From contig NZ_JAOWPT010000012.1 in NCBI RefSeq assembly GCF_025753855.1, forward strand, positions 124,001-188,000: 64,000 nt of DNA, given 5' to 3'. The translations under genes were made by a program, and so were the position numbers. Below are positions 11,056-39,988 of the stretch, in pieces (positions within the stretch are counted from its first letter, which is position 1; every line of letters begins with the position of its first letter). The notes under the pieces are model-generated. The model was not told where the DNA came from and searched no databases. It was given only the letters and a program-made list of their open reading frames with translations. This DNA comes from Mesorhizobium sp. ZC-5 (lineage in GTDB: Bacteria > Pseudomonadota > Alphaproteobacteria > Rhizobiales > Rhizobiaceae).

Positions 11056-11131
11056 GGGCCTGTAGCTCAATGGTTAGAGCCGGCGGCTCATAACCGCTTG
11101 GTTGGGGGTTCGAGTCCCTCCGGGCCCACCA
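11056..11131 (+). tRNA. tRNA-Ile2 (anticodon CAU)
   Basis: 76 bases including encoded CCA. The acceptor stem GGGCCTG pairs with CGGGCCC. The anticodon arm GGCGG-CTCATAA-CCGCT carries CAT, and the T arm is GGGGG-TTCGAGT-CCCTC. The anticodon stem-loop CTCATAACCGCTTGGTT closely follows the minor isoleucine tRNA whose C34 is modified to lysidine, rather than methionine tRNAs. Its 3' end (11117-11131) plus one base forms the left end of a probable genomic island. Confidence 0.9.
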
Positions 11132-11132
11132 T
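11117..11132. repeat. Left attachment-site repeat (tRNA 3' end)
   Basis: CCTCCGGGCCCACCAT covers the end of the T arm, the acceptor strand and CCA. The same 16 bases occur at 39973-39988 in direct orientation. Tyrosine recombinases of islands commonly recombine at the 3' end of tRNA genes, restoring the gene and leaving such a direct repeat. Confidence 0.65.
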
Positions 11133-11579
11133 CCACATGCTTACCGTGAGTTGCCAAATTAATTTTGCCGCGCGCCACAATTCGATTTGACGCGGGTGCA
11201 AGTAGAGCATGCTCGAAGTCTCTGGTTTCTAAAGAAATTTCCGTGGGGCTCTCCCGCCATATTTCGTGTTAAGCCTCAATTTCGCTATATAAAAGACCGG
11301 ATCGCCGCCTGTTACAAATCACCTGAATCAAAGTGCACCTCGTACTGTTATAGAGACCGACAGATCTCTATTTTTTGAGTAGAATCTCAATTCAAATGCG
11401 TAAAAATTCGCCGCATCCAACGCACACTACGCATTTTCTGCGGCCATCGCCGGATGCCAACTGCCTGATACGAATCGCTAATATGAACTCCGGCTTAGAA
11501 CCGCAACTTTCCAGCTTAGCGTCGTCATTTCCCTAGGAGGCGTAACGCTTCGACTTGCCGGAACGACCAGAGCCGACGC
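11133..11579. other. AT-richer non-coding stretch inside the island
   Basis: No frame here reads like a protein. The base composition is visibly lower in GC than the chromosome to the left, as expected for transferred DNA just inside a tRNA-bound island. An integrase gene would be expected in this position but is not present. Confidence 0.5.
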
Positions 11580-11843
11580 TCAGAACCTCAAATTGCCCTG
11601 CTGAATGAGGTCCCTGCGGATCCGAAGCCCCGGACCTGATACTCCGTCATCCGGGGTGAAGGTAATGCCCTTCTTCTCGAAAAAGTCCTGTAGGCGCCGA
11701 CGCGTCTCGACGGTAACCGTCTCGTCGTTGCGTTCGATGCGCAGGATTGTCCGCTGGCCCACTCCGGAGAGCTTAGCCAGCTCCCGTTGACCGATGTTGA
11801 GCGCAACACGAGCAGCCCGCAAAAGTTCATTGGGAACATCCAT
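11580..11843 (-). CDS. XRE-family helix-turn-helix regulator
   Basis: 87 residues from ATG 11843. The helix-turn-helix lies at about residues 6-60: LLRAARVALNIGQRELAKLS, then GVGQRTILRIERNDETVTVE. The C-terminal FFEKKGITFTPDDG is typical of small phage- or island-borne repressors. It has no partner toxin next to it. Upstream repeats with the CTAGCGGT word (11852-11902) are candidate operators. Confidence 0.85.
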   Translation of the reverse strand: MDVPNELLRAARVALNIGQRELAKLSGVGQRTILRIERNDETVTVETRRRLQDFFEKKGITFTPDDGVSGPGLRIRRDLIQQGNLRF

Positions 11844-11851
11844 ATCCCATT

Positions 11852-12002: not shown

Positions 12003-12419
12003 ATGTCTGTCCCGCTGATTCCAGCGAATCACAAGGATCCGAATGAAACGGATCCTTGGACAGACGGAGACTTGCTGATGCTGCTGTTCAACCAGCGTAA
12101 CGAACCCAGTGCCGAGCTCGCCCGCGAGATGGCGCGCCTAGCCGCGCTGTTCGCCGATATGGAAAGCATTCATCGCGGCCTGCCGCCGGAAGTCATGGCC
12201 GGCGACGATGCTCCGGTTCTCGATCGGTGGGTCCTCGCCAAGAGGGGGGTGCCCTGCCTCGCCGGACTGTCGACCGGCCATTCGACGCTTGTCGGTGAGA
12301 ACCGCCTGATCAGCACGTCGGAGCTGTGGCTGCTGTCGAAGGACCGTAGCTGGGCGCGAACGCTGTCGCGCTGGTATCGGCTCGGCCGCCTTGCCGAAAA
12401 CCCCGGCCTGAATGCCTGA
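12003..12419 (+). CDS. DUF6634-like small hypothetical protein
   Basis: 138 residues. The second half has the shape I recall for DUF6634 proteins of rhizobial mobile DNA: APVLDRWVLAKRGVPCLAGL, then TGHSTLVGENRLISTSELWL and SWARTLSRWYRLGR. The first half is acidic and helical. No catalytic motif is visible. It is followed 73 bases later by a gene that usually encodes a large ATPase in such pairs, here truncated. Function unknown. Confidence 0.6.
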   Translation: MSVPLIPANHKDPNETDPWTDGDLLMLLFNQRNEPSAELAREMARLAALFADMESIHRGLPPEVMAGDDAPVLDRWVLAKRGVPCLAGLSTGHSTLVGENRLISTSELWLLSKDRSWARTLSRWYRLGRLAENPGLNA

Positions 12420-12492: not shown

Positions 12493-13299
12493 ATGAACTT
12501 CTTCCAGAACAATCTCGACGAGGACATCCGGGAATATGCCGAGCGCCTGTCACGGCGGATCAGGAAGCGCGGCGATCTCGCGCTTGCATCGCTCGCCGCC
12601 GCCCTGGAGGAACTGACCGTCGAGCAGAGCGAAGACGGCGTTCAGTCGCTGGTCCAGTGCCTCGATGGCGTGGAGGAGGTAAACGGTGTGCCCGTCGAGA
12701 CCTGCCGGCTGCGGTGCCAGTACTATTTCGCCTCCTTCGGCGATCCGGATGCTGCGGCATCGATCGCGGGCGAAGCTGCAACGGTCGCGCTGCGGGACAT
12801 CAACGAACGAGATGGCCTGCGCATGGTCGGGCGCGCGCTCGGTTTGGCGGTGATGTCGCGCACTCTCGAACACACGAGCAAGGTCGATGGCCTTTATACA
12901 CCGCGTCGATCGGTGTTCCGCATGCTGCATGGCTACGAACGCGATTTCGAGGCTGCAATCCAGCGCGCAGTGAGAAAGAGGGAACAGGAGGAGAAAGAAG
13001 CTTCCGCCGTCGATGACCCGGCAGTCGTGGAAGACAAGGCAGCGGGCGGCAGCGCCGATATGGATGGATCGGTGGTCGTGTTCACCTCCATTGGCAACAA
13101 CACCACCTCGGAAGGCAAGCGCGTCGAGAAAGAATTCGAGAAGATCGTGCAGCGCCGCCTGACGCTACCCATTGCGCCAGACCTTACACTTCCTTGGCCC
13201 GACAAGATACTACACCGCGGATACCCATTTTTCGCATGCGCGCATGCTGTCGCCGACAGCATGCAACCGCCCGTTTGCCGACATCCGCGACATGGATGA
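12493..13299 (+). pseudogene. N-terminal part of a large (AAA/Lon-like?) protein, truncated
   Basis: An open frame of 268 residues from ATG 12493. Residues about 1-230 have normal protein character, with MNFFQNNLDEDIREYAERLS, a charged linker (about 165-195) and VVVFTSIGNNTTSEGKRVEKEF, a stretch I recall in front of the ATPase domain of rhizobial AAA/Lon-like proteins. No Walker motif follows. From about 13190 the DNA instead encodes a metallophosphoesterase in another frame, so the last 35 or so residues are out-of-frame translation of that gene. I infer a deletion or recombination joint near 13185-13195. The family assignment is from memory and moderate. Confidence 0.5.
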
Positions 13300-13753
13300 A
13301 TTCCTGATCCGCGCCTGGAACGCCATCGTGAAACCGGATGACGTAGTTTATCATCTCGGGGATTTTTCCATGGGCCTGCACGACGGCGACCGCGTGCGCG
13401 GAATCTTCTCGCGCCTCATGGGCCGTAGGAACTTGATCCTCGGCAACCACGACTATCAGCGGCAGAACAGGATTCACCCGGTCATCACTTCGCTCGAGTG
13501 GGATCAGCCGCCGACGCAGCAGCTGGAAGTCACCGATGAGGGCGAGCGTATTTTCCTCTGTCACTACCCATGCCGGACGTGGCCTGGAATCCTGAAAGGG
13601 AGCTGGCATTTCTACGGCCATGCTCATGGTGAGATGCCCAACTATCACCGCTCCCGGGATGTCGGGGTCGACTGTCCGGACACAGGTTTCGGACCACGTA
13701 CGTTCAAGCAGCTGACGCGCCAGATGAAGACGGCAAAGGGTGCCTGTGAATAG
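13172..13753 (+). CDS. Metallophosphoesterase
   Basis: 193 residues from a possible TTG at 13172; the natural start may have been lost at the upstream joint, since family members begin close to YYTADTHFSHARML. Metal-binding blocks are clear: DTHFSH (about 17-22), HLGDF (about 63-67), GNHD (about 90-93) and the C-terminal YGHAHG. This is the calcineurin-like phosphoesterase fold used for nucleotide or nucleic-acid phosphates. It overlaps the broken gene before it. The downstream 430 bases lack a gene. Confidence 0.75.
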   Translation: MRQTLHFLGPTRYYTADTHFSHARMLSPTACNRPFADIRDMDEFLIRAWNAIVKPDDVVYHLGDFSMGLHDGDRVRGIFSRLMGRRNLILGNHDYQRQNRIHPVITSLEWDQPPTQQLEVTDEGERIFLCHYPCRTWPGILKGSWHFYGHAHGEMPNYHRSRDVGVDCPDTGFGPRTFKQLTRQMKTAKGACE

Positions 13754-14187: not shown

Positions 14188-15987
14188 ATGACGGACGATC
14201 CCTCCAGGACGGTGTTGTTTGAGGTTTGGCTGGTTGGAGCCCTCCTCCTATTTTCGGCACTTGGAGCGAACGCGACGGATGCAAAGCGCGTCCTTTTGCT
14301 GCACTCGTTCGGCCGAGATTTTGCGCCCTTCAGCGAGATGACCAAGAGCTTTCATGCGGCGCTGGTGAAGCGCTCGCCGGAGCCGCTTGATTTTTATGAG
14401 GCGTCGATTTTTACAGCTCGGTTTCAGAAGCCCGAGAGCGACGATTCGCTGGTCAAATATCTGCAGGATCTCTTTTCCGGGCGCAGGCCGGATTTGATCG
14501 TCGCTCAAGGTGGGCCTGCCGCGGCCTTCGTCGAGAAATATCGGAAAGAGCTGTTTTCCGACACACCCGTGGTGATATCGGGGGTGGATTCGCGGCTCAT
14601 GCCCGATGCAGGCCTCACAGCCAACGACACCTACATCGGGGTCAAGCTCGATCTTCCGGCCTTCGTCGAGAACATTCTGCGCGTGCGGCCCGAGACGACA
14701 AACATAGCGGTCGTCGTCGGCAATTCTCCCAACGAGCAATTCTGGGCCCGTGAATTGCGCAGCGAGTTTCAACCGTTTGCCGATCGCGTGAAATTCGAAT
14801 GGCTTGATGAATTGTCGCTCGACGACATGCTGGGCCGGGTCGCCGACCTGCCGCCGCGATCCGCTGTCCTCTATTTCATGCTGGCGGTCGATGGAACGGG
14901 CGCCGTCCACCCGCTGGATGTCACCTTCAGCCGACTGCGCGAGGTCGCTACCGTTCCGGTTTTTGGCTATGCCGACTATCATCTGGGGCAAGGCGACGGC
15001 GAGACCCATCCCTTCCTGTCGCCGAATGACGAGTTCGCGAATTTCGAGAGGTGGGACAAGGGCAACCTCGACCTGACGGTATTGAAGACGCCCGATATGC
15101 TGGAGTTCGAATATGCGCGCTCGGCGTTGAAGAACGGCCTCAAGCTCGAGGCCAAGCTCGGCGTCAACCCCTACAAGTTCGGCATGGTCGGCTCGACCGA
15201 TGCGCACACCGGCCTGTCTGCCGTCGACGAGGACAACTTCTTCGGCAAGACATCAAGCAGCGAGCCGGGGCCGGACCGCGCCACGCACCCGTTCGTCAAG
15301 GCCGAGAAGGCAACCATCATGGGCTGGGAGCAGACCGCTTCCGGCTATGCCGGCGTCTGGGCGACGGAGAACACGCGCGAGGCGATCTTTGACGCAATGG
15401 AGCGCAAGGAAACCTATGCCACTACGGGCCGGCGAATGCTGGTCCGCTTCTTCGGCGGCTTCGACTTCACAGCAGACGACGCCAATTCGAGGAGCCCGGC
15501 CATAGCCGGCTACAGCAAAGGCGTGCCGATGGGCGGCGACCTGACCAATGCGCCCGCAGGCAAGGCGCCAACATTCCTCGTCGCCGCGCTGAAGGATCCG
15601 ATCGGCGCCAACCTCGACCGTTACCAGATCGTCAAGGGCTGGCTCGATGCTTCGGGCGAAGTGCACGAGCAGGTCTACGACGTTGCCTGGGCAGGCGACC
15701 GCAAACCCGGCGCCGATCGAAAGCTGCCGCCGGTCGGCGACACGGTCGATATCGCCAACGCTACATGGACTAATACAATCGGCGCTCCGGAACTGATCGC
15801 TGTCTGGACCGATCCCGAGTTCGACCCCGCGCAGCGAGCCTTCTACTATGGTCGCGTCATCGAGATTCCGACGCCACGCTGGACCGCCTACGATGCCAAG
15901 TATTTCGGCATCACGATGCCGCCGGAAGCCACAATGACAACCACGGAGCGCGCCTACACGTCGCCGATCTGGTACACGCCAAAGTGA
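14188..15987 (+). CDS. Chimeric protein: periplasmic sensor domain fused to DUF3604 C-terminal half
   Basis: 599 residues in one open frame. After a hydrophobic leader (about 8-30), residues 31-268 match the ABC-substrate-binding-like sensor part seen at the N-terminus of rhizobial hybrid histidine kinases: [54 protein letters not shown] and [14 protein letters not shown]. From about residue 269 (near base 14995) the sequence becomes the C-terminal half of DUF3604 proteins: [55 protein letters not shown] and [11 protein letters not shown]. The kinase and the DUF3604 N-terminus are both absent. It looks like a recombination joint that happens to preserve the frame. Activity is uncertain. Confidence 0.75.
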
Positions 15988-16042: not shown

Positions 16043-17371
16043 GTGAGCACCAGCGACCGCCTAGCGCGCGCGACGTCGCTCTCTTTTGCTGAAAGTATTC
16101 ACTGCATTTTGCTAGCCGCTATCCTGCTCACTGTCCTGTCTGGATGCGCGGAACGTCCGAAGAACGTGCTCATACCGGTGGCCGACACCTCCCCATCCTC
16201 GAGCAGGGTGGAAATGTTGGTTGCAACGACCCGCGGCCGCTCGGCCAATCCAGGTGAGATGTTTACAGGCGAACGTGGACTGTCTCCGGCATTTGCCGAC
16301 ATCACAGTTTCAATTCCACCAGACAATGTCCGCAAGGTTGGTGAGGTCGCATGGCCAAAAAAACTTCCGCCCAATCCCGCCACCGATTTCGCGGTCCTCA
16401 GAAGCGCGGATCTCACCGCGGAGGCGGCGAAGGGCTGGCTCAGCGCCTCTGTTAGGAAGAGTCCGGATCGCAGCGTCCTGGTGTTTATCCACGGTTTCAA
16501 CAACCGGTTCGAAGACTCGGTCTTTCGGTTTGCCCAAATTGCCAATGACGCCCGAACCGACAGCGTACCCATTTTGGTCACATGGCCTTCGCGTGGAAGC
16601 ACTTTTGCCTACGGATATGACCGGGAAAGCACCAACTACACGCGCAATGCGCTTGAGACGCTGTTTCAATATCTGGGGCGCGATCCAGAGATAGAGGAAG
16701 TGTCCATCCTCGCCCATTCAATGGGGAACTGGCTGGCGCTGGAGGCGCTTCGCCAGATGGCCATCCGAAACGACGGACTGCCGCCGAAATTCAAAAACAT
16801 CATGCTCGCTGCTCCTGACGTTGATGTCGACGTGTTCCGTTCCCAAATTGCCGACATGGGCAAACAGCACCCCCAATTCACGCTTTTCGTTTCGCAAGAT
16901 GACCGCGCACTGGCAGTTTCGCGGCGGGTCTGGGGCAGCGTCGCCCGGCTGGGATCTATCGACCCGGAAAAAGCTCCATACAAGGAGGAACTTGCAGCAA
17001 ACAACATCACGGTCATCGACCTGACAAAGGTCAAATCCGGAGACAAACTCAACCATGGCAAATTTGCTGAGTCGCCTGAGATCGTCCAACTCATTGGGGC
17101 GCGCATTTCCGATGGCCAGGCTCTTACGGACAGCCGGGTCGGCTTCGGCGACAGCATCGTAGCCGTCACCACAGGTGCGGCCGCAGTCGCGGGCACCGCA
17201 GCCGGGCTGGCGATTGCGGCTCCTGTCGCCGTTGTCGATCAAAATACCCGAGACAACTACACGAACCAGGTTGGCCAACTTGGGTTGCCAGCCGAAGGCG
17301 GCAAAGCAGGACGAAGCACGGTCGATTGCAATGCCCGGAAGGACGCCTCGGCGAACATATGCAATCGATAA
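16043..17371 (+). CDS. Lipoprotein alpha/beta hydrolase (DUF900 family)
   Basis: 442 residues from GTG 16043. A lipoprotein signal ends in LLTVLSGCAERP (Cys about 35). The hydrolase part has VLVFIHGFNNRFEDSVFRFA (oxyanion HG motif), the nucleophile elbow ILAHSMGNWLALEAL with Ser, and IMLAAPDVDVDVF, all typical of DUF900. The catalytic His is probably in KLNHGKFAES. A C-terminal Ala/Gly-rich hydrophobic segment (about 375-400) may insert in a membrane. Esterase activity at the outer envelope is likely, substrate unknown. It stands alone, 55 bases after the chimeric gene. Confidence 0.8.
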   Translation: MSTSDRLARATSLSFAESIHCILLAAILLTVLSGCAERPKNVLIPVADTSPSSSRVEMLVATTRGRSANPGEMFTGERGLSPAFADITVSIPPDNVRKVGEVAWPKKLPPNPATDFAVLRSADLTAEAAKGWLSASVRKSPDRSVLVFIHGFNNRFEDSVFRFAQIANDARTDSVPILVTWPSRGSTFAYGYDRESTNYTRNALETLFQYLGRDPEIEEVSILAHSMGNWLALEALRQMAIRNDGLPPKFKNIMLAAPDVDVDVFRSQIADMGKQHPQFTLFVSQDDRALAVSRRVWGSVARLGSIDPEKAPYKEELAANNITVIDLTKVKSGDKLNHGKFAESPEIVQLIGARISDGQALTDSRVGFGDSIVAVTTGAAAVAGTAAGLAIAAPVAVVDQNTRDNYTNQVGQLGLPAEGGKAGRSTVDCNARKDASANICNR

Positions 17372-18064: not shown

Positions 18065-18098
18065 TCACCTGCTCCCTTCCAAACTAGGCAAGTCATCA

Positions 18099-18656
18099 GT
18101 GGAAGACTTGAGACGAAGCTGCGAAGACATGGCTTCTCGGACTCCTCCGCCCGCTACAGCAATGACAATTGCCAGGGCCGTCGGCAGGCTGCTCCCGAAA
18201 CTTGCGAATCCATGGCCCGAGATCTTCGTCAGAATTATCGGAGGTCAGCTCGAAGTCTGGTGCGTAGGAGGAAAGTCATTGATGGCCTCCCTTGCCGTCC
18301 GTGACGCGGCAGCTTTACAATTTCTCAATGACGCTGTTTCGAGCAGCCTGGATCCCGGTATTGTCTTTACACAGCAGGACGCGGCAGGAGTGCTCAAAAC
18401 AACACCTGTGATCGTGAACCAGCTCGTGCGTGAAGGTTTCCTTTCAAGGAAGCCGACGGTGACAGAGCTTGGTGCCTTTGAGAGAGAATTTATACTTACC
18501 TCCGAAATCACCGAGCGCTTCTCGGCTCTCGGACAAAAGCTGCGAGACGTACCTCGTATTCTGCGCGCTGCTGGTATCCAGCCCCATGTTCTGGAACCGA
18601 AGAAGACGCTGGTCTGGCAACGCAGAGAGATAAAACCGCTTCTTGCGGCAGCCTGA
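18099..18656 (+). CDS. Hypothetical protein of mobile DNA, possibly 5'-truncated
   Basis: 185 residues from GTG 18099; ATGs at 18129 and 18162 are alternatives. The middle (about 100-140) looks like a DNA-binding helix-turn-helix: VFTQQDAAGVLKTTPVIVNQ, then LVREGFLSRKPTV. The C-terminal part, RDVPRILRAAGIQPHVLEPK, has the look of the tail of transposition-associated or TniQ-like proteins, but I cannot confirm a family. A good terminator follows at 18697. It may be the C-terminal half of a larger protein. Confidence 0.5.
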   Translation: MEDLRRSCEDMASRTPPPATAMTIARAVGRLLPKLANPWPEIFVRIIGGQLEVWCVGGKSLMASLAVRDAAALQFLNDAVSSSLDPGIVFTQQDAAGVLKTTPVIVNQLVREGFLSRKPTVTELGAFEREFILTSEITERFSALGQKLRDVPRILRAAGIQPHVLEPKKTLVWQRREIKPLLAAA

Positions 18657-18696
18657 ACCTAGCCTTTTCCCAGTCCCGACATTGCTTAGAAGAAGG

Positions 18697-18722
18697 AGGT
18701 CGCCATTAGCGGCCTTTTTTGT
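18697..18722 (+). terminator. Rho-independent terminator
   Basis: AGGTCGC pairs with GCGGCCT (one G-T wobble) around the loop CATTA, directly followed by TTTTTT. It lies 40 bases after the stop at 18656 and fits termination of that gene. Confidence 0.75.
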
Positions 18723-18893
18723 TGCGCATCAGCCGAGCGTGAAACGCGTTGGAATGCCTGTCATAATCACCCTATGAATCAGGCAAGTTTGGCGGATCGC
18801 ATGGAGGGCAGAACCCCGCTTTGTGGAATTTCCAGGGGTTGGTTGAGTCAGTTTAGATTTGGCCACTCATTTTATTGAAAAAAATACGCCCTA

Positions 18894-18975: not shown

Positions 18976-19203
18976 TTACTTGACGACGTGCAGAGCCGCT
19001 CGCTGCTTCATCGCATCGCGTTTGGGCTCACGCTCGTTGATGGCGCGGGCCATGTCGACAGCCATTCGCTTCTTGTTGGCCTCTCGGACATATCCGTCTG
19101 TCACCGTCATTGAAGAATGCCCCATCGCTTCCATGATAGCGCGCGCTTGGATGTTGCATTCGGCGAGATAGGTGCCGAAGGTACGGCGTAGCCCTTGCTG
19201 GAT
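18976..19203 (-). pseudogene. C-terminal fragment of a tyrosine recombinase (integrase)
   Basis: Read on the minus strand from about 19203 to the TAA at 18976, the frame gives QQGLRRTFGTYLAECNIQAR, then IMEAMGHSSMTVTDGYVREA, KKRMAVDMARAINERE and LHVVK. The RR near the start is in the position of the catalytic HxxR region, MGHSSMTVTDGYV holds the conserved GHxxxxxTxxYxH/R block with the Tyr nucleophile, and a basic tail follows. About 75 residues remain; the N-terminal and central catalytic parts are missing. The break coincides with the start of the RTX remnant, so the two were joined by recombination. Confidence 0.75.
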
Positions 19204-19205
19204 CT

Positions 19206-20200
19206 GATATCTATCAGTGGGGCGCTGGTTATGACAATGATGCGATCAGCGAAACGACCGGCTCCGCCGACGTCGATTCAATTCGGTTGATAAACACGAA
19301 TCCAACTGACGTTACGTTCACGCGGGCCGGCAACGACCTTTTGATAAAGATGGTTGCCACAGGTGAAATCCTTTCGATCACCAACCATTTTGGCTCGACC
19401 AGCACAGGAATTGAACAGGTTCTTTTCGCGGATGGAACTATTTGGAATCGCGAACAGGTTCGTCAGGCGGCATGGTTCCGCGGCACAAGTGGAAATGATT
19501 CGATTACAGGCACCACGCTGGATGACACGATTGTCGGTGGGGCTGGTAACGACACCATGCTCGGCAAGGCGGGTAGCGACACGTACCACTACACATCAGA
19601 GGACGGCAGTGACATCATCAATGATGATTCCTCGTCGACTGCGAATGTCGATACGCTGTCGTTTAGCAATCTGAATGCTGATGATCTCGTATTCTCCCGC
19701 GCCGGTCAAAATTTGACGATCAACGTGGTTGCCACCGGAGAACGATCACGGTTCAACGTCAATTCTATTCAACAACCCAGAACTGGGGTGTCGAGAAGAT
19801 CGTATTCGCAGACGGCTCGGAATGGAACCTAGCGACGATCAATAGCAATGCCTGGATCAGGGGCACGGCGGCGAACGACACGATTGTCGGCACCACTTGG
19901 AATGACACGATCATCGGTAATTCGGGGAACGACAGCTTGACGGGTGGCGCTGGAAACGACGTGTTCGTCTTCGATCCTGGTTTTGGTAAGGACACAATCA
20001 CTGATTTTACGGCAGGTGTCGGGTCAGTCGATGCTATCGAGTTCGCAGACGATGTGTTTGCCGATTTTGCTGCGGTCTTGGCCGTGGCTAGCCAGGTTGG
20101 CGCCGACACGCTGATCACGGCTGATGTCAACAACACGATAACGCTGAAGAATATCGCGCTGGCAAACCTTCATCAAGAAGACTTCCAGTTCGTCGGTTGA
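19206..20200 (+). pseudogene. RTX calcium-binding repeat protein, truncated and frameshifted
   Basis: The frame from 19206 begins inside a repeat module (DIYQWGAGYDNDAISETTG) with no start codon or upstream protein. It has nonapeptide-type repeats TIVGGAGNDTMLGKAGSDTY and the linker LINTNPTDVTFTRAGNDLLI. At about 19740 an extra A shifts the frame: GENDH-type reading versus the expected GETITV. In the second frame it continues EKIVFADGSEWNLATI, LTGGAGNDVFVFDPGFGKDT and ends LHQEDFQFVG at 20200. The tail is the usual C-terminal secretion region of type I-exported RTX proteins. No type I transporter genes are near. Confidence 0.8.
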
Positions 20201-20597
20201 GATGAGAGGCTGACGTGCGCATGCAGGCGCCAGATACGCCGCTGCGCTTCACACTCGCTGCGGCTTTGGCCGCGTTCCGACGCGCGTCTGTCGGCATCGG
20301 GGTGATGAGCGGCGTCATCAACATCCTAGCGCTTGCGGGGTCGTTCTCGTGCTGCAGGTAAGCCTCCGCGAAGATCTTGCAGTCGCTGCGTCAGGCTCGC
20401 ATTCCAAGCTGAGCCCGTGAGGGGTTGGGGTGGGCTGCTCGTAAAGCATGCGCATCGAACAGCTCCGCCTCGGCAAACAACAAACAAATTTCGCGCGATG
20501 ATTCCTGTGGTTTTGCGGGGTATCTGCTTGTGCCAGCGTGAACTGCGTCGGAAGATTTGCTAGCATCGCGCTGATAGGCAACGGGTTGGGGATCGAG
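20201..20597. other. Intergenic stretch before the type II secretion cluster
   Basis: I see no gene here. It should contain the promoter of the + strand gsp operon. I could not assign convincing -35/-10 boxes. Confidence 0.4.
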
Positions 20598-28693: not shown

Positions 28694-29182
28694 TCACAAT
28701 CCACGAAGATACGGAATTTGCTGCTCCCCGATCCACGTCAGGAAAAGACCGGCGGCGAGGAACGGACCGAACGGCTGACGCGCGGCTGCGGGCCGTCCGT
28801 TCAGCATATACCGGCCGATTGCGAAGACCAGCCCGCAGAAGCTCGCCACGAAAACAAAGAGCGGCAGGTTCCAGGGGCTGATCCAGATGGCCGAGGCTCC
28901 GGCCATCTTCACATCGCCGAGGCCGAGGCCGATGCGGCCCGTCAGAACGGCATGGACACGGCGGATGAGCCAGAAGGCGGCGAACACGACGAGGCCCGAA
29001 AGCGCCTGGAGCCAAAGTGTTTCCGGAAAGATGGCCCACTGATAGGCAAGCCCGCCGGCCGCAAGAAGTGCGCTCAGGACATCGGGAACGATCATCTTGT
29101 GGAAGTCGATCCAGGCGATTGCGCCGAGGATTGCTGCCAGCACGATGCCGAAAAGGAGCGTGACACCCATTCTCGTCCTCAA
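28694..29182 (-). CDS. gspO: Prepilin peptidase GspO (A24, short form)
   Basis: 162 residues with several membrane segments. The two catalytic aspartates are present: IDFHKMIVPDVLS and the GLGDVKM (GxGD) motif. The N-terminal methyltransferase domain of long GspO/PilD enzymes is absent; this is the short A24 form as in CpaA-type peptidases. It cleaves the leader of the pseudopilins encoded here. It overlaps gspD by 4 bases. Confidence 0.88.
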   Translation of the reverse strand: MRTRMGVTLLFGIVLAAILGAIAWIDFHKMIVPDVLSALLAAGGLAYQWAIFPETLWLQALSGLVVFAAFWLIRRVHAVLTGRIGLGLGDVKMAGASAIWISPWNLPLFVFVASFCGLVFAIGRYMLNGRPAAARQPFGPFLAAGLFLTWIGEQQIPYLRGL

Positions 29183-31724: not shown

Positions 31725-32246
31725 TCAATTTTGCCAGTAGTTGCTGGCCGAGAGCAACGTGCGCTGCATCAGGCCTTTCTCTCGGAATTTTCGAGTCTCA
31801 TTGAAATACCGCCAGTCAAAGAACTTCACCGGAATATTTTCTTTCATTGGGTCGAGTAACTCACTGCCGAACAAAAAATTGCGGAAGCGAGTATAGACCG
31901 ACGAGCCGGGGCATCTCCGAAAGTCAAAGCACAGTTCGGCGCATTCGAGACTTAATGCGCCGAACATGAGTAGGCCGAACGGAATCCAGGTGTCGAAAAA
32001 CTTGAACTTTGTCCAAGCATCGTCGAACCATTCGTCAGCGTCCAAACCATAGAAAACATTAAACTGAGCTGGAAAATCGTCTTCGGGCGGCATGTCAATA
32101 AAATCGGGCGCTGGGTGACCGCCATTGTGCTTCAGCAGGAAGTCCCGATAAGAACCAGGCAAAGGAAGCCTGGTCTGGCGTTCAAACTCATCCACAAGTT
32201 CCTCAGAAGCAGGTCGTGCGACTGGGTCGTCAATGACAAGGACCAC
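31725..32246 (-). CDS. SMI1/KNR4 (SUKH) immunity protein
   Basis: 173 residues from GTG 32246. The SUKH fold start is visible: LVDEFERQTRLPLPGSYRDF with FLLKHNGGHP, then FNVFYGLDADEWFDDAWTKF and WIPFGLLMFG, and SVYTRFRNFLFGSEL. SUKH proteins neutralise nuclease toxins delivered by contact or secreted systems and are the classic partner of WHH nucleases. It lies 17 bases downstream of the RHS toxin end, in the same direction, so it is the cognate immunity gene. It appears intact although the toxin is broken. Confidence 0.85.
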   Translation of the reverse strand: MVLVIDDPVARPASEELVDEFERQTRLPLPGSYRDFLLKHNGGHPAPDFIDMPPEDDFPAQFNVFYGLDADEWFDDAWTKFKFFDTWIPFGLLMFGALSLECAELCFDFRRCPGSSVYTRFRNFLFGSELLDPMKENIPVKFFDWRYFNETRKFREKGLMQRTLLSASNYWQN

Positions 32247-32263: not shown

Positions 32264-32950
32264 TCAAAATCCAAAGGCTGATTTGATCGCCCCCCACAAT
32301 CCGCCGCCACCTGAATAGCCGCCCTTCTGCGAGATCGAGAACCCACCTGAATGGCTCGTATTTTTGTGGGGTTGGCTCTTAACCAACTGCATGGTCTTGC
32401 CGTCTTGGTGATGATGCGATGTATAACCACGAGGCTTTCGCTCGATCCCCAAGGCTCTATTGGCAGCAATTTCATCAAGCCTCCGGCTCCGGAATTTGCC
32501 GATCTTGACCGTCTGGCCATCAAAGATCGGAAATCCAAGCCCGTCGTAGCGTATCCCTGTTACGGGATGAACCTTTCCTGCCAGCGATTTGTTGATGATC
32601 GCCACACCAGATCGATCAACAGCGCGTGCTATTCCTGCATCTTTACAGCTTGGGTCGCAAGACCGGCAACAAAACCCGCGCCCTTGCCGATGGGCACTGC
32701 GGTTGCCACCCCAACACATCCAGGCCTTCTCTGACAGCGGTTCCGGTCGTTGATGAACCCACCTTGTCGCGGAGCCCGTCGGCTAACGCGCGGTGCTCAT
32801 TGGCTAAGTCGGCTTGACCTTGCTCCTCAAATTGATCGGCAAGCTCGTCATGAACTTCAGCGTTCGCAGCGTTTAGTTCGTCGCGTGCATCCTGCGACAT
32901 AAAGGCTTCCGGCCATGCATGCCCGTTTGGATCGCTCTTGTTGATGGATC
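32264..32950 (-). pseudogene. C-terminal WHH-type nuclease region of the RHS toxin, frameshifted
   Basis: This continues the RHS protein past its core. A base appears missing near 32944, since DDPSTR reads DDP-NKSDPNGHAWPEAFMS in the next frame. Two more shifts near 32710 and 32644 switch frames again, linking VREGLDVLG with ATAVPIGKGAGFVAGLATQA and then DAGIARAVDRSGVAIINKSL. The last part, VTGIRYDGLGFPIFDGQTVK and GYTSHHHQDGKTMQLV, matches WHH nucleases of the HNH/endonuclease VII group, with the Trp replaced by Ser (SHHH for WHHH). Such domains degrade DNA of rival cells. As written, the toxin cannot be made as one piece. Confidence 0.7.
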
Positions 32951-35900
32951 ATCCAGCGCATAGGCATACCGGTTCGTCCCGACGCCGGGCAGCGCCGGGT
33001 CCCAGTCGTCGGGCGAGATGAAGCGGCCGAAGTGAGGATCCATGTAGCGGGCGTTGAGATATTGCAGCCCGGTCTCGGGATCGTAGCGCTCGCCGATATA
33101 GCCCTTCTTGCGGGCGATGGCGTCGGCTTCGGCTAGGCCGTCGGTTTTGAGCCGTTCGCCATAGGCGGCGTAGATGGCCTTCTCCGTCGCCGCGCCCGAT
33201 TCGTTGGTGACCAGACGCACCGAGGCCAGATGATCGCGGTGCAGCCAGAATTTCTGCGTGCCGACGACCCTGATGTCCGGATGCGGATAGCGGGTGATGT
33301 CGTTGGGTCCGATCGCCGCGGCGCCTCCCGTCGCGTCGATCTCGATATCGGCGGAAGGGTAAAGCGTGACGGCGCCAAGTGAATGCGCCTTCTTCACCCG
33401 CGCGCCGTCGGGCCCGTAGAAGAAGCTTGTGTCGGCGCTGCCGATGTTCACCCTGGACAGCCGGTTGGCGGCATCCCAGGTGAAGGTGCGCGTGCCTGGC
33501 GTATAGGAAGGATCGGACGTCAGATTGCCGTTGGAGTCATAGACGAAGGTCGCGGCGCCGAGTTTCGTCGGCGCGTGCGGCCCGGGGAGGCCACCCACCG
33601 GTTTGGCTGAGGTCATCGCCGGATAGGTGAAGTCGCCCTTGCCGAAATCTGTCAGCCGGTCCCTGGAGAGCAGATTGCCGTTGGCCGAATAGGAAAAAAC
33701 CTCGTCGAGCGCATTGTTGCCGGCATTGTTCGCCGACAACAGCCAGTCGCGATGGTTGTAGGTGTAGGTCCAGTCATCGACGGCGGCTGCGCCGTTGATG
33801 GCGGTGATGCGGCCGGCGGCGTCGCGGGTATAAACTGTGTTGAAGAGAACCGAGCCGTTTCCACTCTTTGTCGCAATGGCGGTCAGCCAGCGGCGAGTGG
33901 GGGAGTAATAGAATTCAGTGGTCACACCATTGGCGTAGGTAATCTTTCTGGTCTGGCCGTCGGCTTCGTACTCGGTCGAGGTGATGTAGCCTGGAATGGA
34001 ATCGAGCTGCCCGTTGGCGGTGTAGGTCCATTTGGCGTTGCTGGAGCCGATGTCGACGTAAGGCGCCGGACCGTATCTCTGCCAGATCGGCTTGTGGCCG
34101 TCATCGAAGAAATAGGCGAATCCGCTGACGACCCCGTCGATCTCGACCTCGCGATGCGTCACGGCGCCGCTCGGGTGATAGTCGATGATATGCGTGACTG
34201 CTGCGTTTTTTGTGGTGGTGAGTTGGCCTATATTGGCAAAGGTGCTGCGCGGTTCGTCATAGGTGTTTTCCGCCAGCACCTCGCCGGTCGAGACAACCCA
34301 GCGTTTCAGCAGCCGACCGAGCTGGTCGTAGCTCATCATCGTCACCCGGCCGCGGGCATCCTGCTGCTCGATCAGCCGGTTGGCGAGATCGTATTTATAG
34401 GTCCACAATCCGAGATCAGGATCCGATGCGTACAGCCGGTTGCCCAGCATGTCGTAGGCATAGGCCCAGGCCGCGCCACCATTGTCCCGCACCCTGATCA
34501 GTTGATGAAACTGGTCGTAAGTATGCAGTTCGACCTGCTCACTGCCGTCAGCCATCATCCAGGTCGTGCGGATCAGGTCGCCCCAGCTGTTGAAATAGCT
34601 GTAGGTGCCGCGGCCGAGCTCATCGACGAGATAAACCGCGTTAAGCGGCACGTTGGCGATGTTGGGCAACATCGCGGGATAGAGGAAATAATCGTACTCT
34701 CGATCCGAGCCGTCCGGATTTACGACCCTCAACGGCCGGTCGGCCCAGTCGTAGGTGGTCGTCGTGAATTGCGGCGACTTGGTGGGGTCGGGAGGATAGA
34801 AATAGGGATGGCTTTTCTTCGCGACATTGCCGCGGAGATCATACTGGGTTTCGATGAGGCGCACGGGATTGACGGAGGCGACGTCGCCGCGCGCAAACTC
34901 ACGCCATATCCTGCCAAGACCGTCGTAATAAATCGCGGTGCTGGCTTCTATGCCACTGTTAGGCAGCGGTTCGTTGACATACCGGCTCTGGCTCGCGGGA
35001 TTGCCTTCGTTGTAGTACGTGATCTTCCGGTAGTTGCCGGTCGTCATGTTCTTGTATTCCGCCAACCGGCAGAACGGGTCGTAGGTGTAGGTGTGTCGGA
35101 CAAGATTCAGATCGATTCGCTCGGAAGGCAGGCCACAGGCGGGATTGTAGAGCGCCGTGGTCTTGTGCCTGACGTCGGCCGGCAGGCTGCCATTGGCGAA
35201 ATAGCGCGGGCTGCGCACCAAGGTCGGATAAAGATTGTAGGTAGGATCATAGTTTGTCGCGGTGACGTTGTTGGCGCCGTCGATCGCCGTCAGTTGGTTG
35301 CCGTCGTCGTCGTAAGTGAACTTCTCGAAAACGTCGACCTGTGAGCTATTCACATGCTGGATTTTGGTGACGTTGCCTTTGATTGGCGATGCGAGATAGG
35401 TGACTGCACCATCATAATAAAAATAGTCAGAACGGACCGCATCAGCGCCACTGTCGAAGGTATTGAATATCGCCTCGCTTCTTGGCAATGACGTGATGAA
35501 AGCCGTTGTGTTGGGGATATAGAAGCGATAAGTTCGGCGTTCGTCGCCTGACAAATCCGTCCGGCCATGATCCTTTTCATCATAGAGATTGCCCCACTGA
35601 TCGAAAGCGCGCTCCACCCTGAGGGGCAGCGTAACCTGCTCCGTCAACCTCGTGTCTGTTTTCGTGTTTTTAGACCAATAAGGTTTTGACGCCGCGTTGA
35701 CGCTCCAGGTCTCGTCGACCTGCTTTCTCACCACGCCAGCGCCGTCCTTGAAGACCGTGAGTTCCGGTAGGCCGTAGCTTGCAACATCCTGCCGGTAGGT
35801 CGTCTCGACGGTCGGAGCGGCGGTCTCGCCATTGGCGAGCGGCTTGGTCTCGACGATCTTCTGGTAGCCGAAGAACTTTCGTGACTTTGGATCGTATTTT

Positions 35901-38680
35901 CCACCGAAGTAGGTGTAGCTCGTGTCTGCAATTTGATCGCGGCCGTCGCTAACCGATAGCTTGGTCACGGGGTGCATCACGTCAGGCATGTAGCCGTTGG
36001 ACCAGTAGGATGACGGCGAATAGTATGCAGAAATGATTGCACCTAGTTCGTTGACGATCGTTCGCAACATGTTCGGTCGTCCCGAACTGGGTGCCGATAG
36101 CTTAAGTGCCCATTCCACGCCTTGGACGCCGTTTGGTGTTGCTCGCAGGAAATCCGGCAGACCGTCGCCATTGTAATCGTGTATTTGATCGCCACTCATC
36201 GAGGTGAGCGGTGCGTACTGAACGAGCAGGTTCGACGCGCCGAACTGCAGTGCATAGACCTTTTGTTGGTAAAGCGTATTTCCTGCAGCGAAATTTTCCG
36301 GCCCAAAAATGATGTCTGTTTTGCCGTCTGCGTCGTAGTCGGTAAATTTCGGCGGCCCAGAAATGGTGAAGTATCCTTGGCTGCCCGATGCGAGCGCCTT
36401 GAACGAATTTCCCGTTGAAAGATAAACGTACGCCCGCCTGTCAGCCGGCTCGTGACGCTTGCCGTCGATGGTTTGCACGAAGCTGACATAGTAACGAACG
36501 ACGTCTGTTGCTCCGTCGCCATTAATGTCGACCAAAGCGCAGGAATGCAGCGTGATTGTTCCCTGGCTTTGAGGAAACGGTACAGGTTTTGCGCAATCGG
36601 CTACCGGCGCAGCCATCCCGAATTTCCAGGCGCTGCCATTGGGCTCGGCAGTCCCATCCGACGTGAGCATCCGCTGGCGGCCGTTGGCTTCGAAATCGCC
36701 AACGCCCAAAAATCGCGTCAGATAGCTTGATCCGCGCGGATCGACCCAGCGATAAATGCTGTCGATACCGTCGCCCTCCATATCAGCAACAAAGACCGGA
36801 ACCGGCGAGCCGAGGCTGCTCGCATCGTTAATCTCAGGTGGCAGCTTTGCGCAGACAGGAGAATAGATGGCTGGTGCTGTAGCACAGGGATAACCGATGC
36901 CGTCGAGGTCGGCATCAGTTTTGGAGATGGCATTTCTCCGCCTGAAGGTAGTCGGCCCTGGTGTTCCATTGCTGCCTTCAGGAGCAACCGTTTTTGTCGT
37001 GGTTGAAATGGCGTAGTCCTTGAACACCCTCGCAGCATCAAAGCGCCCCAGATAGCGGTTGCTCCCCGCTAAGCTTGTTGTTCCATCTGGATAAGTTGCG
37101 TCAAACGGCACGCCAGTTAGAGGGACATTCAAGCTGGAGGGACTTCGCTTCGTTATCGTGCCGCTGGCATTGAAGATCAGATGGAACTGGGAAGCAGCAC
37201 CATTTGAAGTCCAGTATCCCCCTCCACCCCCGCCGGGAATAACCTGCCACTTTTGCGGTGAGACGGTGGCGACGAGTTCATCCTTGCCATCGAAGTTCAA
37301 ATCGCTTGCTGTTTGCAGCCCACCCGTCACCCGTGTCGAACCCTGGACAGGGTTTGGTGGTGTCGCCGTATAAGGCAGCAAGCCATCGAGAGGTGCGTCG
37401 ACGTAACTGGCTGTCGTGTCCAGGTAGTCAAAACTGGCAATGCGCTTCTTGACGGCGCCGGAAACCACGCCTGCCGACGAAACCGTCGCATCGGCATCGC
37501 CGTGCAAGCCGTGCAACTCGACCAGCATCAGCCGTGAGGCGTTGGAAAATGGTGCTTGGTCGTACGTCATCGTGTAGGCAGAGCGCAAAACCCCGCCGGA
37601 TCTGATGCTGATCGTCTTGAGGCGCTGCTTGGTCGCCGCGATATCGTAGCCATTGGCCATCAAAATCACGTCGGCCCGGGCCTCCCGGTAGAAGGTGATG
37701 ACGGCGCCAGTGTAACTGATGGTATTCGGGTAGCAGACTGCGGTAAGTGGCGATGCCGCCATATCGGGACATGCGTAAGCAAACGAGACCGTATTGCCGT
37801 GCGTGTCCGTCACCGCCGCCAGCAGCCAACGGTTGACTGCCAAGTTGTAAGCGGGTGTGCCGGACGTCGGCGTCACCCCCGACAATGCAGCAATTGTCTT
37901 GAAGGTCGAAACCGTTCCGTCGAGATCCGTCACTTTCCATAAGCTTGACGGACCGGAGCCGGTGAGGGCGATGCGACGATAGCTCTCGACTTCAGTTACA
38001 TGCGTCCCACCCACACCAGCGGCACAAGAGGGTGCGCCGGCTGCAGCTTGTGCGCAAGGCACAAGTTCCGCACCGTTGAGAAGATAAATATCAGACGCGT
38101 CGAAATCGGGAAGTCCATAACCCGGGCTTGCTCGCTCGATGACGTCGAAACCGTCGAGCCCCCAGCCATAGCCCAGCCAGCCTTGGTAGAGCCCACCGGT
38201 TTTGGTCTTGCGGGAAGAATTAAAGTTCAGGGCAATGGAGGGCTCGAGACCTCGGAACGCCGGCACTTCAATGGGAATGTCGTAAGTGAGGTTGCCAGTG
38301 CTATCCATCTCGCCAGGCATTGATGGCTTTTCGATTGTGCCTTCCAGTTTGTCGGGAATGATCGGGCCCGACACCGCTGCGGCGGCAGCCGACGCCTGTG
38401 CCTCGGCGGCATCCGGGGCTGGCATTTCGGCAAGGCCGTCGTCAACGTTGGGCTCCTCAACCGCGGGTTTGTCATCGCTCGCCGTACTCGACGGGTCGTT
38501 CGGTGCCTGTTCGTTAAAGCCGCCACCGCTATTGCCGTATCCGGGGGCCGGCTGAGGTAATGCTGGGGACTGTTCGGGTTCGGTGTTGAGCTCTTGGGCG
38601 TATAATTGGCCGGATAGGCTCCAACCAACAACGAAAAGCCCGAGCGTCAGAACGCCCGCGCGCAAAAGCCCAGCAGCCAT
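32873..38680 (-). CDS. Secreted SpvB/RHS-repeat toxin carrier protein
   Basis: 1935 residues from ATG 38680, with GGGGG upstream. A Sec signal peptide (about 1-29, MAAGLLRAGVLTLGLFVVGW..YAQE) and a Pro/Glu/Asn linker precede an SpvB-type domain (about 100-330: PSMPGEMDSTGNLTYDIPIE). VCBS/FG-GAP repeats follow (LVDINGDGATDVVRYY, IHDYNGDGLPDFLRA), then many YD repeats (YDELGRL, YDQLGRLLKRW) and the RHS core end GERYDPETGLQYLNARYMDP, HFGRFISPDDWDPALPG. The shell encapsulates a C-terminal toxin, here the frameshifted WHH nuclease. The last about 25 residues of this frame (TRAIQTGMHGRK) are out-of-frame. It sits next to gspD on the same strand. Confidence 0.85.
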   Translation of the reverse strand: MAAGLLRAGVLTLGLFVVGWSLSGQLYAQELNTEPEQSPALPQPAPGYGNSGGGFNEQAPNDPSSTASDDKPAVEEPNVDDGLAEMPAPDAAEAQASAAAAAVSGPIIPDKLEGTIEKPSMPGEMDSTGNLTYDIPIEVPAFRGLEPSIALNFNSSRKTKTGGLYQGWLGYGWGLDGFDVIERASPGYGLPDFDASDIYLLNGAELVPCAQAAAGAPSCAAGVGGTHVTEVESYRRIALTGSGPSSLWKVTDLDGTVSTFKTIAALSGVTPTSGTPAYNLAVNRWLLAAVTDTHGNTVSFAYACPDMAASPLTAVCYPNTISYTGAVITFYREARADVILMANGYDIAATKQRLKTISIRSGGVLRSAYTMTYDQAPFSNASRLMLVELHGLHGDADATVSSAGVVSGAVKKRIASFDYLDTTASYVDAPLDGLLPYTATPPNPVQGSTRVTGGLQTASDLNFDGKDELVATVSPQKWQVIPGGGGGGYWTSNGAASQFHLIFNASGTITKRSPSSLNVPLTGVPFDATYPDGTTSLAGSNRYLGRFDAARVFKDYAISTTTKTVAPEGSNGTPGPTTFRRRNAISKTDADLDGIGYPCATAPAIYSPVCAKLPPEINDASSLGSPVPVFVADMEGDGIDSIYRWVDPRGSSYLTRFLGVGDFEANGRQRMLTSDGTAEPNGSAWKFGMAAPVADCAKPVPFPQSQGTITLHSCALVDINGDGATDVVRYYVSFVQTIDGKRHEPADRRAYVYLSTGNSFKALASGSQGYFTISGPPKFTDYDADGKTDIIFGPENFAAGNTLYQQKVYALQFGASNLLVQYAPLTSMSGDQIHDYNGDGLPDFLRATPNGVQGVEWALKLSAPSSGRPNMLRTIVNELGAIISAYYSPSSYWSNGYMPDVMHPVTKLSVSDGRDQIADTSYTYFGGKYDPKSRKFFGYQKIVETKPLANGETAAPTVETTYRQDVASYGLPELTVFKDGAGVVRKQVDETWSVNAASKPYWSKNTKTDTRLTEQVTLPLRVERAFDQWGNLYDEKDHGRTDLSGDERRTYRFYIPNTTAFITSLPRSEAIFNTFDSGADAVRSDYFYYDGAVTYLASPIKGNVTKIQHVNSSQVDVFEKFTYDDDGNQLTAIDGANNVTATNYDPTYNLYPTLVRSPRYFANGSLPADVRHKTTALYNPACGLPSERIDLNLVRHTYTYDPFCRLAEYKNMTTGNYRKITYYNEGNPASQSRYVNEPLPNSGIEASTAIYYDGLGRIWREFARGDVASVNPVRLIETQYDLRGNVAKKSHPYFYPPDPTKSPQFTTTTYDWADRPLRVVNPDGSDREYDYFLYPAMLPNIANVPLNAVYLVDELGRGTYSYFNSWGDLIRTTWMMADGSEQVELHTYDQFHQLIRVRDNGGAAWAYAYDMLGNRLYASDPDLGLWTYKYDLANRLIEQQDARGRVTMMSYDQLGRLLKRWVVSTGEVLAENTYDEPRSTFANIGQLTTTKNAAVTHIIDYHPSGAVTHREVEIDGVVSGFAYFFDDGHKPIWQRYGPAPYVDIGSSNAKWTYTANGQLDSIPGYITSTEYEADGQTRKITYANGVTTEFYYSPTRRWLTAIATKSGNGSVLFNTVYTRDAAGRITAINGAAAVDDWTYTYNHRDWLLSANNAGNNALDEVFSYSANGNLLSRDRLTDFGKGDFTYPAMTSAKPVGGLPGPHAPTKLGAATFVYDSNGNLTSDPSYTPGTRTFTWDAANRLSRVNIGSADTSFFYGPDGARVKKAHSLGAVTLYPSADIEIDATGGAAAIGPNDITRYPHPDIRVVGTQKFWLHRDHLASVRLVTNESGAATEKAIYAAYGERLKTDGLAEADAIARKKGYIGERYDPETGLQYLNARYMDPHFGRFISPDDWDPALPGVGTNRYAYALDDPSTRAIQTGMHGRKPLCRRMHATN

Positions 38681-39480
38681 GATGGCACCCCCAATATGTC
38701 GCCTGCGCAAACACACGCATTGCGAACAATCGAGTCAAGCTACCAACCAGTAGTGTCCGACCGGTTATCAACAATATGGTTTCTGGCTTATGCACGAGCG
38801 CTTGCCATCAGAGATCGCTGGAACCCAGACGTAGCACCCTATCACGATCGCCAGATGCTGCGGCGTGAGCGACGCATGGCCTAGTTCAATATGACCTGCT
38901 CAGAACACATACTACTTCGGCCGTTGCCGACCGGTGCCTTCACCGTCTCGCGCATAGACACCGAAACGGCGCAGGTGGCATCGCCTTCTGAAATCCTGAA
39001 ATCCTGAAATCCTGAAATCCTGAAACCCGGAATTCCGTGTTTGCGATGGGCCGTTCTTAGGCCGGCCTCTGCGCTCAGGATCGGAACGCGCCATCGATCT
39101 TGTCCTGACCAAAAAATTCCATGGATGGAATCCTGAACGGCACCCTTCGCCGGGGACGGTAGGCCCCGCATCCCGCCTGACGGCGGCTCTATGCTGATGC
39201 TCCTACGGCCGCCCCGTTAACCGGTCTCAGGGCCACGAACTTTCTCCCGCACCGAACTGACTTGATCCCGCTGACGGGCATCTCGGTGCTTCTGCCTTAT
39301 ACGCCCTTCTTTGATGCGGACGCTCACGCGGCACGGCTGCACCGAGACGGATGTGCCTAGCGGCACGTTTCTTGTTTGACCGGAAATAGGCGCGCGGCCC
39401 TCTCTCCCAGCAAGCCGCCGCTGGCGGTTTCCCTCATCTCCTCCACTTCGCTCCGTGCAGATCCGGGGGGAGGCCATGCA
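38681..39480. other. Non-coding stretch upstream of the RHS gene
   Basis: No convincing gene. It holds the RHS gene promoter, an 8-base tandem repeat (38988-39027) and sequence joining the island to the ParB-like remnant. Confidence 0.45.
38988..39027. repeat. Tandem repeat of an 8-base unit
   Basis: CTGAAATC is repeated four times without change, followed by a fifth, altered copy (CTGAAACC). The unit length is not a multiple of 3 and lies outside genes, so copy-number change by slippage would not affect a protein. It is not a CRISPR array. Confidence 0.8.
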
Positions 39481-39835
39481 CCCGGTGGACACGTCATTGC
39501 TTACCGCGACCTTGTGGAACAGGGCATGGCCGCCGAGGACATCGCCTCGCGCTTCGGTAACTCCGTTGTCACGGTGCGCCAGCGGCTCAAACTGGCGACC
39601 CTGTCGCCGCGCATCCTCGATGATATGCAGGCCGATGACCCTTAAGAAGGCCAGGGCCAGCGTGGTGAGCGACGACCACATGGCACAAGAGGCGGCGTGG
39701 TTCGAGTAGGATGTATGGAGCCGTAACCCGGGCAGTATCCGCTCGTTCCTTACCAACGCCCATGTGCGCGGCAATGACCGGCTGGTCCGATTTGTCGGCC
39801 GTGAGGCCTATAAGGCAGGCGGCGGCGTTGCCGAT
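39480..39835 (+). pseudogene. ParB-like protein gene, broken
   Basis: The frame around 39500-39645 gives VIAYRDLVEQGMAAEDIASR, FGNSVVTVRQRLKLATLSPR and ILDDMQADD, the helix-turn-helix part of ParB/RepB-like proteins. At about 39635 the reading moves to another frame: MTLKKARASVVSDDHMAQEA, then AWFE followed by an in-frame TAG, then NPGSIRSFLTNAHVRGNDRL and VRFVGREAYKAGGGVA. Such genes are common in rhizobial plasmids and integrative elements. The N-terminal nuclease/ATPase part is absent. It lies 140 bases from the right attachment repeat. Confidence 0.7.
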
Positions 39836-39972
39836 CCGCCATGGCGGGAGCCTATCAGGCGGTTTAGGGGCGGCAGCTTGCATGCCTGCGGCAGAACCAT
39901 ACGGAATTATACGGGAAGGTTCGTCGATATGTGCCCACGAAAAATATAATGAAATCAACAGTCTGAACACGT

Positions 39973-39988
39973 CCTCCGGGCCCACCAT
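39973..39988. repeat. Right attachment-site repeat
   Basis: CCTCCGGGCCCACCAT, identical to 11117-11132 at the tRNA 3' end, in direct orientation. It marks the right border of a 28.9-kb region. Confidence 0.65.

Follow-up and report, generated by a model that had tools for sequence, protein, structure and literature searches.

Type II secretion genes beside an RHS toxin gene in a tRNA-Ile2-bounded segment of Mesorhizobium sp. ZC-5

The window analysed here, 64,000 nucleotides of Mesorhizobium sp. ZC-5 (positions 124001-188000 of the 196,867-base contig NZ_JAOWPT010000012.1 of a draft genome of 6.3 Mb, with the contig end 8.9 kb past the window), holds a segment of 28.9 kb that starts at the 3' end of a tRNA-Ile2 gene, ends with a second copy of that 3' end and encloses a cluster of type II secretion system (T2SS, gsp) genes next to a gene for a large RHS toxin shell, a separate nuclease tip and an immunity gene. 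In window coordinates, the features on which the argument rests are the following.

11056..11131, plus strand: tRNA-Ile2 (CAT) gene, the integration site (identity from the E. coli annotation)
11117..11132, plus strand: left 16-bp direct repeat copy (attL core)
20538..21650, plus strand: gspL (PilN domain)
21650..22258, plus strand: gspM
22255..22809, plus strand: gspC-like gene, named from its position, the look of the sequence and the homologues that other loci have there
22806..23693, plus strand: gspK-like minor pseudopilin gene, named from homologues in the corresponding position of other loci
23690..25342, plus strand: gspE ATPase gene
25339..26568, plus strand: gspF, from a longer open reading frame, with a putative start
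26565..27044, plus strand: gspH pseudopilin gene (family match below cut-off)
27044..27460, plus strand: gspI pseudopilin gene (weak family match)
27460..28134, plus strand: gspJ pseudopilin gene (family match below cut-offs)
28240..28737, minus strand: gspG major pseudopilin gene (TIGR01710, over cut-off)
28694..29182, minus strand: gspO prepilin peptidase gene, named from homologues at the same place, which plasmid records annotate as prepilin/A24 peptidase
29179..31341, minus strand: gspD secretin gene (TIGR02517, over cut-off)
31725..32246, minus strand: SUKH (SMI1/KNR4) immunity protein gene
32264..32719, minus strand: WHH nuclease tip as a separate open reading frame, with stops between tip and RHS frame
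32873..38716, minus strand: RHS shell with signal-like N-terminus, SpvB, FG-GAP propeller, TcdB_midN, RHS repeats and RHS core
39973..39988, plus strand: right 16-bp direct repeat copy (attR core)

The window holds two exact copies of the 16 bases CCTCCGGGCCCACCAT and no more, one at 11117-11132 and one at 39973-39988, both on the plus strand, and none of 100 shuffled sequences gave a match; as the bases that flank the two copies differ on either side, 16 bases is the full length of the repeat. A tRNA 3' end repeated at both ends, as in genomic islands as a class, had been the starting point of the original prediction and is borne out by these counts, as is the name given to the tRNA: although ARAGORN labels the gene Met(CAT), its top E. 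coli match (83%) is annotated as tRNA-Ile, on which ground the Ile2 identity holds. Less survives of the suggestion that a hairpin to the right of 39988 is the old terminator of the tRNA, since the hairpin is seen in folding but a terminator scan of 39950-40200 called none; folds after the tRNA in relatives are unlike one another. A short tandem repeat with the unit CTGAAATC was noticed by eye at 38988-39026, near the right end of the island.

The T2SS consists of twelve open frames between 20538 and 31341, arranged in two blocks, L-M-C-K-E-F-H-I-J on the plus strand and G-O-D on the minus strand. Secretin, ATPase, platform protein, major pseudopilin and peptidase are all represented, the peptidase via homologues only, with no family match for GspO in the profile scan. 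As in known T2SSs, GspD and GspG (over NCBIfam cut-offs) and E, F, L and M (over Pfam cut-offs) have family matches, those of H and J staying below; the window departs from known systems in its two-block order, in a GspE under the TIGR02533 cut-off and in having C, K and O named by position and homologues.

On the minus strand beside the T2SS, the RHS protein of 1947 aa begins with an N-terminus that, by eye and by a hydrophobicity script, resembles a Sec signal peptide, and continues with SpvB domain, propeller, RHS repeats and core. Signal peptide, SpvB domain and propeller define the TcdB/TcaC kind of polymorphic toxin in the sections of Zhang et al. (2012; PMC3482391) drawn on here, where WHH, SUKH and RHS are also a listed combination, and all of these elements, including the integrin-like propeller, recur in the window. 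It differs from those toxins in having a whole gsp cluster as neighbour and in the separation of shell and tip: the RHS open frame ends shortly after the RHS core, the WHH open reading frame lies beyond stops and the SUKH gene follows directly. Because stop codons split the shell from its tip, the window copy probably delivers no nuclease, and it may be inactive, though the T2SS genes look whole. The description of the region as decayed fits the integrase fragment, a ParB-like piece and the nuclease tip, but not the secretion genes, all twelve of which are open frames.

Use of the tRNA site was followed in a genus set of three genomes, own included (the two congeners being G001 and G002), and in a family set of 151 genomes. 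A SIMPL-domain gene (10231-10941) precedes the tRNA, and gene and tRNA together were matched in 57 of the 151 (E up to 1e-40), the match running unbroken to the tRNA end in 37 of these, as counted from the rows listed; G037 has both near each other but split over two matches, and the tRNA of G063 and of G068 is located elsewhere, away from the SIMPL gene. The stretch that follows the tRNA was retrieved from 20 of the 57 matching genomes and from both congeners, and with one locus dropped as lying on the wrong side (L082), 21 relatives (19 + 2) were compared over up to 20 kb (only 9.1 kb in L073) through open reading frames of at least 90 aa at E up to 1e-15. The post-tRNA DNA differs between most lineages, some having genes in common, and between two species of a single genus (G030, G128) the distance from the tRNA to a shared set of downstream genes differs by about 8.5-8.7 kb. 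With a left flank kept in many family members and variable DNA after it, the tRNA-Ile2 site is a hotspot of integration, which in relatives is occupied by other elements. A 414-aa tyrosine integrase directly follows the tRNA in G001, and an integrase match lies at the same place in G002. Three of 22 loci, the window included, hold a second copy of the tRNA end, at 9.3 kb after the tRNA in G002 (L029, 8307) and at 1.25 kb in G065 (L063, minus strand); the G065 copy and the right copy of the window have 18 bases in common, CGTCCTCCGGGCCCACCA, which differ from the tRNA itself. L077 and L078 gave weak protein matches (25-38%) to parts of the contig that start at about 53.8 kb in window coordinates and lie partly past the window; otherwise the DNA read after the tRNA in these relatives has no match to the window beyond 39988.

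Two further stretches connect the left part of the segment with G105, a genome of another genus.

11147..11226, plus strand: 80-bp element end, 90% identical to the same post-tRNA position in G105
18090..18869, plus strand: block 93.8% identical to a G105 region, with an open reading frame of unknown family

The first is held by 2 of 395 family genomes, the window's own and G105, about 15 bases after the tRNA in both, and five other genomes matched over 19-25 bases only. The counterpart of the second lies about 18 kb after the tRNA in G105, in a gene for a 633-aa protein with no Pfam family, whose last ~187 residues are matched by the 185-aa open reading frame of the window. The likeness of element end and second block supports a common mobile ancestor.

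GspE of the window kind occurs in 9 of the 151 family genomes (E up to 1e-130, own included), scattered over 8 of 109 genera, and an RHS protein of the window type in 11 of the 151 (E up to 1e-20, own included); at those thresholds the two congeners have neither. Together with the tRNA hotspot, these counts support the earlier claim that secretion system and RHS toxin were horizontally acquired. Both proteins are present in 5 of the 151 genomes, and the Fisher test, which is not corrected for kinship, gives p 8e-5, or 6e-4 without the query genome and 0.005 when, in addition, only one of the two g31 genomes is kept. Sixteen T2SS loci were compared, comprising the window, eight other family genomes, three named genomes from the first rows of a contig search (M. 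ciceri WSM1271, Palleronia, Rhizobium sp. CF080) and four rhizobial plasmids that also carry a T2SS of the window kind. With whole open frames as queries, an RHS gene lies less than 2 kb from the gsp cluster at seven of the 16 (6 of 15 without the window), namely in the window, G060, G011, Mesorhizobium ciceri WSM1271, Rhizobium sp. CF080 and on plasmids of Rhizobium sp. TAL182 and Neorhizobium petrolearium; three loci have too little flank at contig ends (G108, G150, Palleronia). Side and strand of the RHS gene relative to the gsp cluster vary, with RHS genes inside the cluster in CF080 and one at each end in N. petrolearium. Signal-like N-termini, judged by the hydrophobicity script and by eye, are found on the RHS proteins of six of the seven linked loci, in TAL182 on a separate open reading frame upstream of the RHS gene. 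The RHS protein of G060 is of a different type, with PKD and HINT domains.

Around these loci some further proteins were noticed. In N. petrolearium (L245, 9144-10094, minus strand) and M. ciceri WSM1271 (L235, 14687-15712, minus strand), a signal-like protein of about 320-340 aa directly follows the linked RHS gene; the former is annotated as transglutaminase family and is, by eye, alike to its WSM1271 counterpart. Short signal-like proteins that run into an RHS-core end and then into variable tips are encoded in Rhizobium sp. CF080 (L237, 11513-12730 and 15393-16397, minus strand) and at L238 (13914-15011, minus strand), and by eye they resemble secreted orphan RHS tips beside full RHS and gsp genes. 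That the T2SS of WSM1271 lies on another tRNA island was considered and set aside, no tRNA being present within the 79.6 kb read.

The remaining features of the segment are small or partial.

11580..11843, minus strand: HTH_3 regulator
12003..12419, plus strand: DUF6634 protein
13172..13753, plus strand: calcineurin-like phosphoesterase
14188..15987, plus strand: DUF3604 protein, with a family match only over residues 268-598
16043..17371, plus strand: DUF900 alpha/beta hydrolase
19075..19197, minus strand: C-terminal tyrosine integrase remnant (24.8 to 26.7 bits; cut-off 27.1)
19775..20008, plus strand: RTX calcium-binding repeat remnant, absent from the original prediction
39490..39642, plus strand: ParB HTH-like remnant (HTH_ParB, E 5.9e-4, under cut-off, weak)

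An integrase fragment had been predicted and is there, as a C-terminal end just under the family cut-off; the predicted ParB-like pseudogene stands as a piece of DNA, but its HTH_ParB match is too weak to pass. Over 48 residues (54%, E 6e-10) the integrase remnant resembles another remnant, located in G065 0.2 kb past the second tRNA-end copy and reading towards that copy; this likeness makes it more likely, though not certain, that the remnant once belonged to an element of the tRNA-Ile2 site. Pfam scans of 24 open reading frames of the segment, in which shorter frames were only partly covered, found neither a relaxase nor a conjugation gene, so that the segment lacks in these scans the apparatus of an integrative and conjugative element (ICE). 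With an integrase reduced to a fragment, the island is best read as no longer mobile, in agreement with what had been predicted. GC in 2-kb windows ranges from about 0.53 to 0.66 inside the segment and from 0.60 to 0.67 outside, and the proposed comparison of GC and codon use shows a mosaic and not a uniformly foreign composition: GC at third codon positions (GC3) is low in the WHH and SUKH genes (0.55-0.58) but host-like in the gsp genes (0.70-0.86). The first 267 residues of the DUF3604 protein have no family match, and among the matches listed, plasmids of Rhizobium, Sinorhizobium and Ensifer match its second half at 76-79%; these plasmid homologues cover the same part as the family match.

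From this anatomy, the segment was very probably integrated at tRNA-Ile2 as a genomic island of the ordinary kind, its right end being unproven, and an island from 11133 to 39988 with a T2SS-RHS module is probably the best explanation of the locus as a whole. The 16-bp core of the element would have recombined site-specifically with the 3' end of tRNA-Ile2, leaving the tRNA whole and a core copy at the far end, after which the element's own integrase would have been lost and the island have become the present mosaic. Its main cargo would be a module that moves among rhizobia, made up of a full T2SS gene set, an RHS/SpvB toxin with Sec signal and nuclease tip, and the SUKH gene. In an intact module, Sec would take the RHS shell to the periplasm, where it would fold around the toxin tip, and the adjacent T2SS would export the folded shell across the outer membrane to kill or inhibit what are presumably competitors without the SUKH immunity protein. 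Linkage and signal-like N-termini point to such a service of the T2SS to RHS toxins, a proposal on which we are evenly divided. We are no more and no less confident of the wider idea of a rhizobial mobile killing module, in which a dedicated T2SS, beyond the general Sec route, would export giant SpvB/RHS toxins, and gsp clusters would be docking sites at which RHS genes and short secreted orphan tips accumulate, spread by islands and plasmids.

A number of observations weigh against these readings. The tRNA was joined to the sequence from 39989 in none of the 21 relatives, none of which was shown to be island-free, and flank searches in the genus and family sets did not find that junction, the one predicted for island-free genomes, either. 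Because both congeners carry other DNA after the tRNA, with an integrase adjoining it, the missing junction neither confirms nor cleanly refutes an insertion. No exact second core copy is present in G105 within 79.6 kb, and the T2SS genes are host-like in GC and GC3. The integrase remnant lies 8 kb inside the segment and is dissimilar to the tRNA-side integrases of G001 and G002, and its G065 relative is itself a remnant with no Pfam match. For the linkage, no RHS gene lies at six of the 16 T2SS loci, each of which is visible for 7.4 kb or more to either side (G051, G130, G032, G122, R. lusitanum and Pararhizobium qamdonense; G032 and G130, near copies at 91%, are both counted), and six of the 11 RHS-positive genomes have no T2SS of the window type, so that neither needs the other. 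T2SS and RHS are both present but apart in G032 and G130 (on different contigs; 363 kb). An RHS match was found at 2 of at least 80 T2SS-ATPase loci from the contig search, most of the others being distant ATPases, and the linked RHS protein of WSM1271 lacks an N-terminus. On the GspE tree, the RHS-linked loci are clustered, with 3 changes needed and a count as low in 22 of 500 shuffles; part of the linkage may go back to common descent, and RHS-linked T2SSs may have a single origin on this tree.

Among other explanations of the segment, it is conceivable, if rather doubtful, that the 28.9 kb are one unit of a longer island array at the tRNA, with 39988 as an inner junction and the tricarboxylate-transporter region also acquired. 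In the two congeners, whatever matches 39973-42600 and 44100-64000 is scattered, about 65-76% identical and not at the tRNA locus; among the 151 genomes, a single one other than the window's own matches 39973-41957 at E up to 1e-40, with 65% identity. As the right flank has no close congener counterpart, 39988 may be an inner boundary and the flank itself accessory DNA, and the true core could lie further right, past the contig end only 8.9 kb beyond the window; yet GC and GC3 right of 39988 are host-like, and ten right-flank proteins scanned belong to transport or metabolic families (two have no family), with no mobility gene among them. It is unlikely that the repeats mark an older, small element and that gsp, RHS and the other genes reached the same hotspot afterwards along different paths, with no single 28.9-kb insertion: the GC shifts along the segment, the matches of its left end and of 18090-18869 to G105, the rhizobial plasmid matches of DUF3604 and DUF900 and the lack of a tRNA-side integrase would suit such a history, but the two cores enclose every part, and elsewhere T2SS and RHS genes in linkage move as a pair. 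Least credible of all, despite the host-like GC3 of the gsp genes, is that the ancestor of the genus already had T2SS and RHS and both congeners later lost them, given the scattered occurrence of the T2SS in the family and its presence on four rhizobial plasmids.

With the island preferred as the frame of the segment, T2SS and RHS genes could still lie side by side simply as genes that gather in the same accessory regions, the RHS protein leaving by another route and the T2SS serving enzymes, which we hold to be possible but the weaker account. The DUF3604 and hydrolase genes beside the window T2SS, the six loci without RHS, the T2SS locus of G122, which holds a CEMIP beta-helix protein instead, and a linkage due in part to descent would agree with it; distances below 2 kb, the RHS genes inside the CF080 gsp cluster and at both ends of that of N. 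petrolearium, and a co-occurrence above chance speak against it. The G122 protein (L122, 282-4733, minus strand) is secreted-looking, 1484 aa long and encoded between gspJ and gspG, with no RHS gene nearby.

While the island is ordinary in kind, the T2SS-RHS linkage is not. Rhizobial tRNA islands, integrative and mobilizable elements and ICEs are exemplified by the Mesorhizobium symbiosis ICEs, whose tRNA integration sites include tRNA-Met (PMC8627217), and by the tRNA-Ile symbiosis ICEs of Bradyrhizobium, reported along with a suggested tRNA-Ile remnant (PMC9239051); as far as the consulted portions of these papers go, the window has in common with them the repetition of a tRNA 3' end, a site that is used recurrently, and cargo of foreign origin. 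It differs from rhizobial ICEs in having no conjugation or symbiosis genes among the scanned proteins, an integrase that is a fragment, and an RHS gene linked to a T2SS. Export of such toxins by a T2SS has already been proposed in general terms (PMC3482391), where Table 1 gives the T2SS/Sec route as a default path with no signature neighbour genes; relative to that part of the paper, the gsp-RHS gene linkage is the new addition. In the portion of PMC4885058 at hand, Yersinia entomophaga is reported to have a T2SS cluster that is separate from its RHS regions, and in the literature searched on T2SS or secretion with RHS, a scope outside which subscription journals and preprints fall, no paper was recognisable as describing gsp-RHS linkage. 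The recurring gsp-RHS neighbourhood bears on the export route of the toxins of PMC3482391 and may bear on the T2SS cluster of unknown role that the accessible part of PMC8627217 places on all Cicer symbiosis ICEs, and makes both questions open to simple deletion tests in non-pathogenic rhizobia. If the proposal is true, T2SSs without an assigned role, such as those on rhizobial symbiosis elements, would gain a job in bacterial competition.

Beyond 39988, an origin of the right flank from plasmid DNA was considered and found no support, as the 26 megablast records cover at most about 4% of the query in the 12 best rows and match mostly at a tartrate dehydrogenase. The region from 40434 to 62195, without close counterparts in the congeners, contains repeated tripartite tricarboxylate transporter genes together with aldolase-like, phosphoenolpyruvate (PEP) mutase and ketopantoate-reductase genes and a tartrate-dehydrogenase match; three TctA genes lie at 40434-41957, 50288-51796 and 60660-62195, with TctB at 41976 and TctC at 43586.

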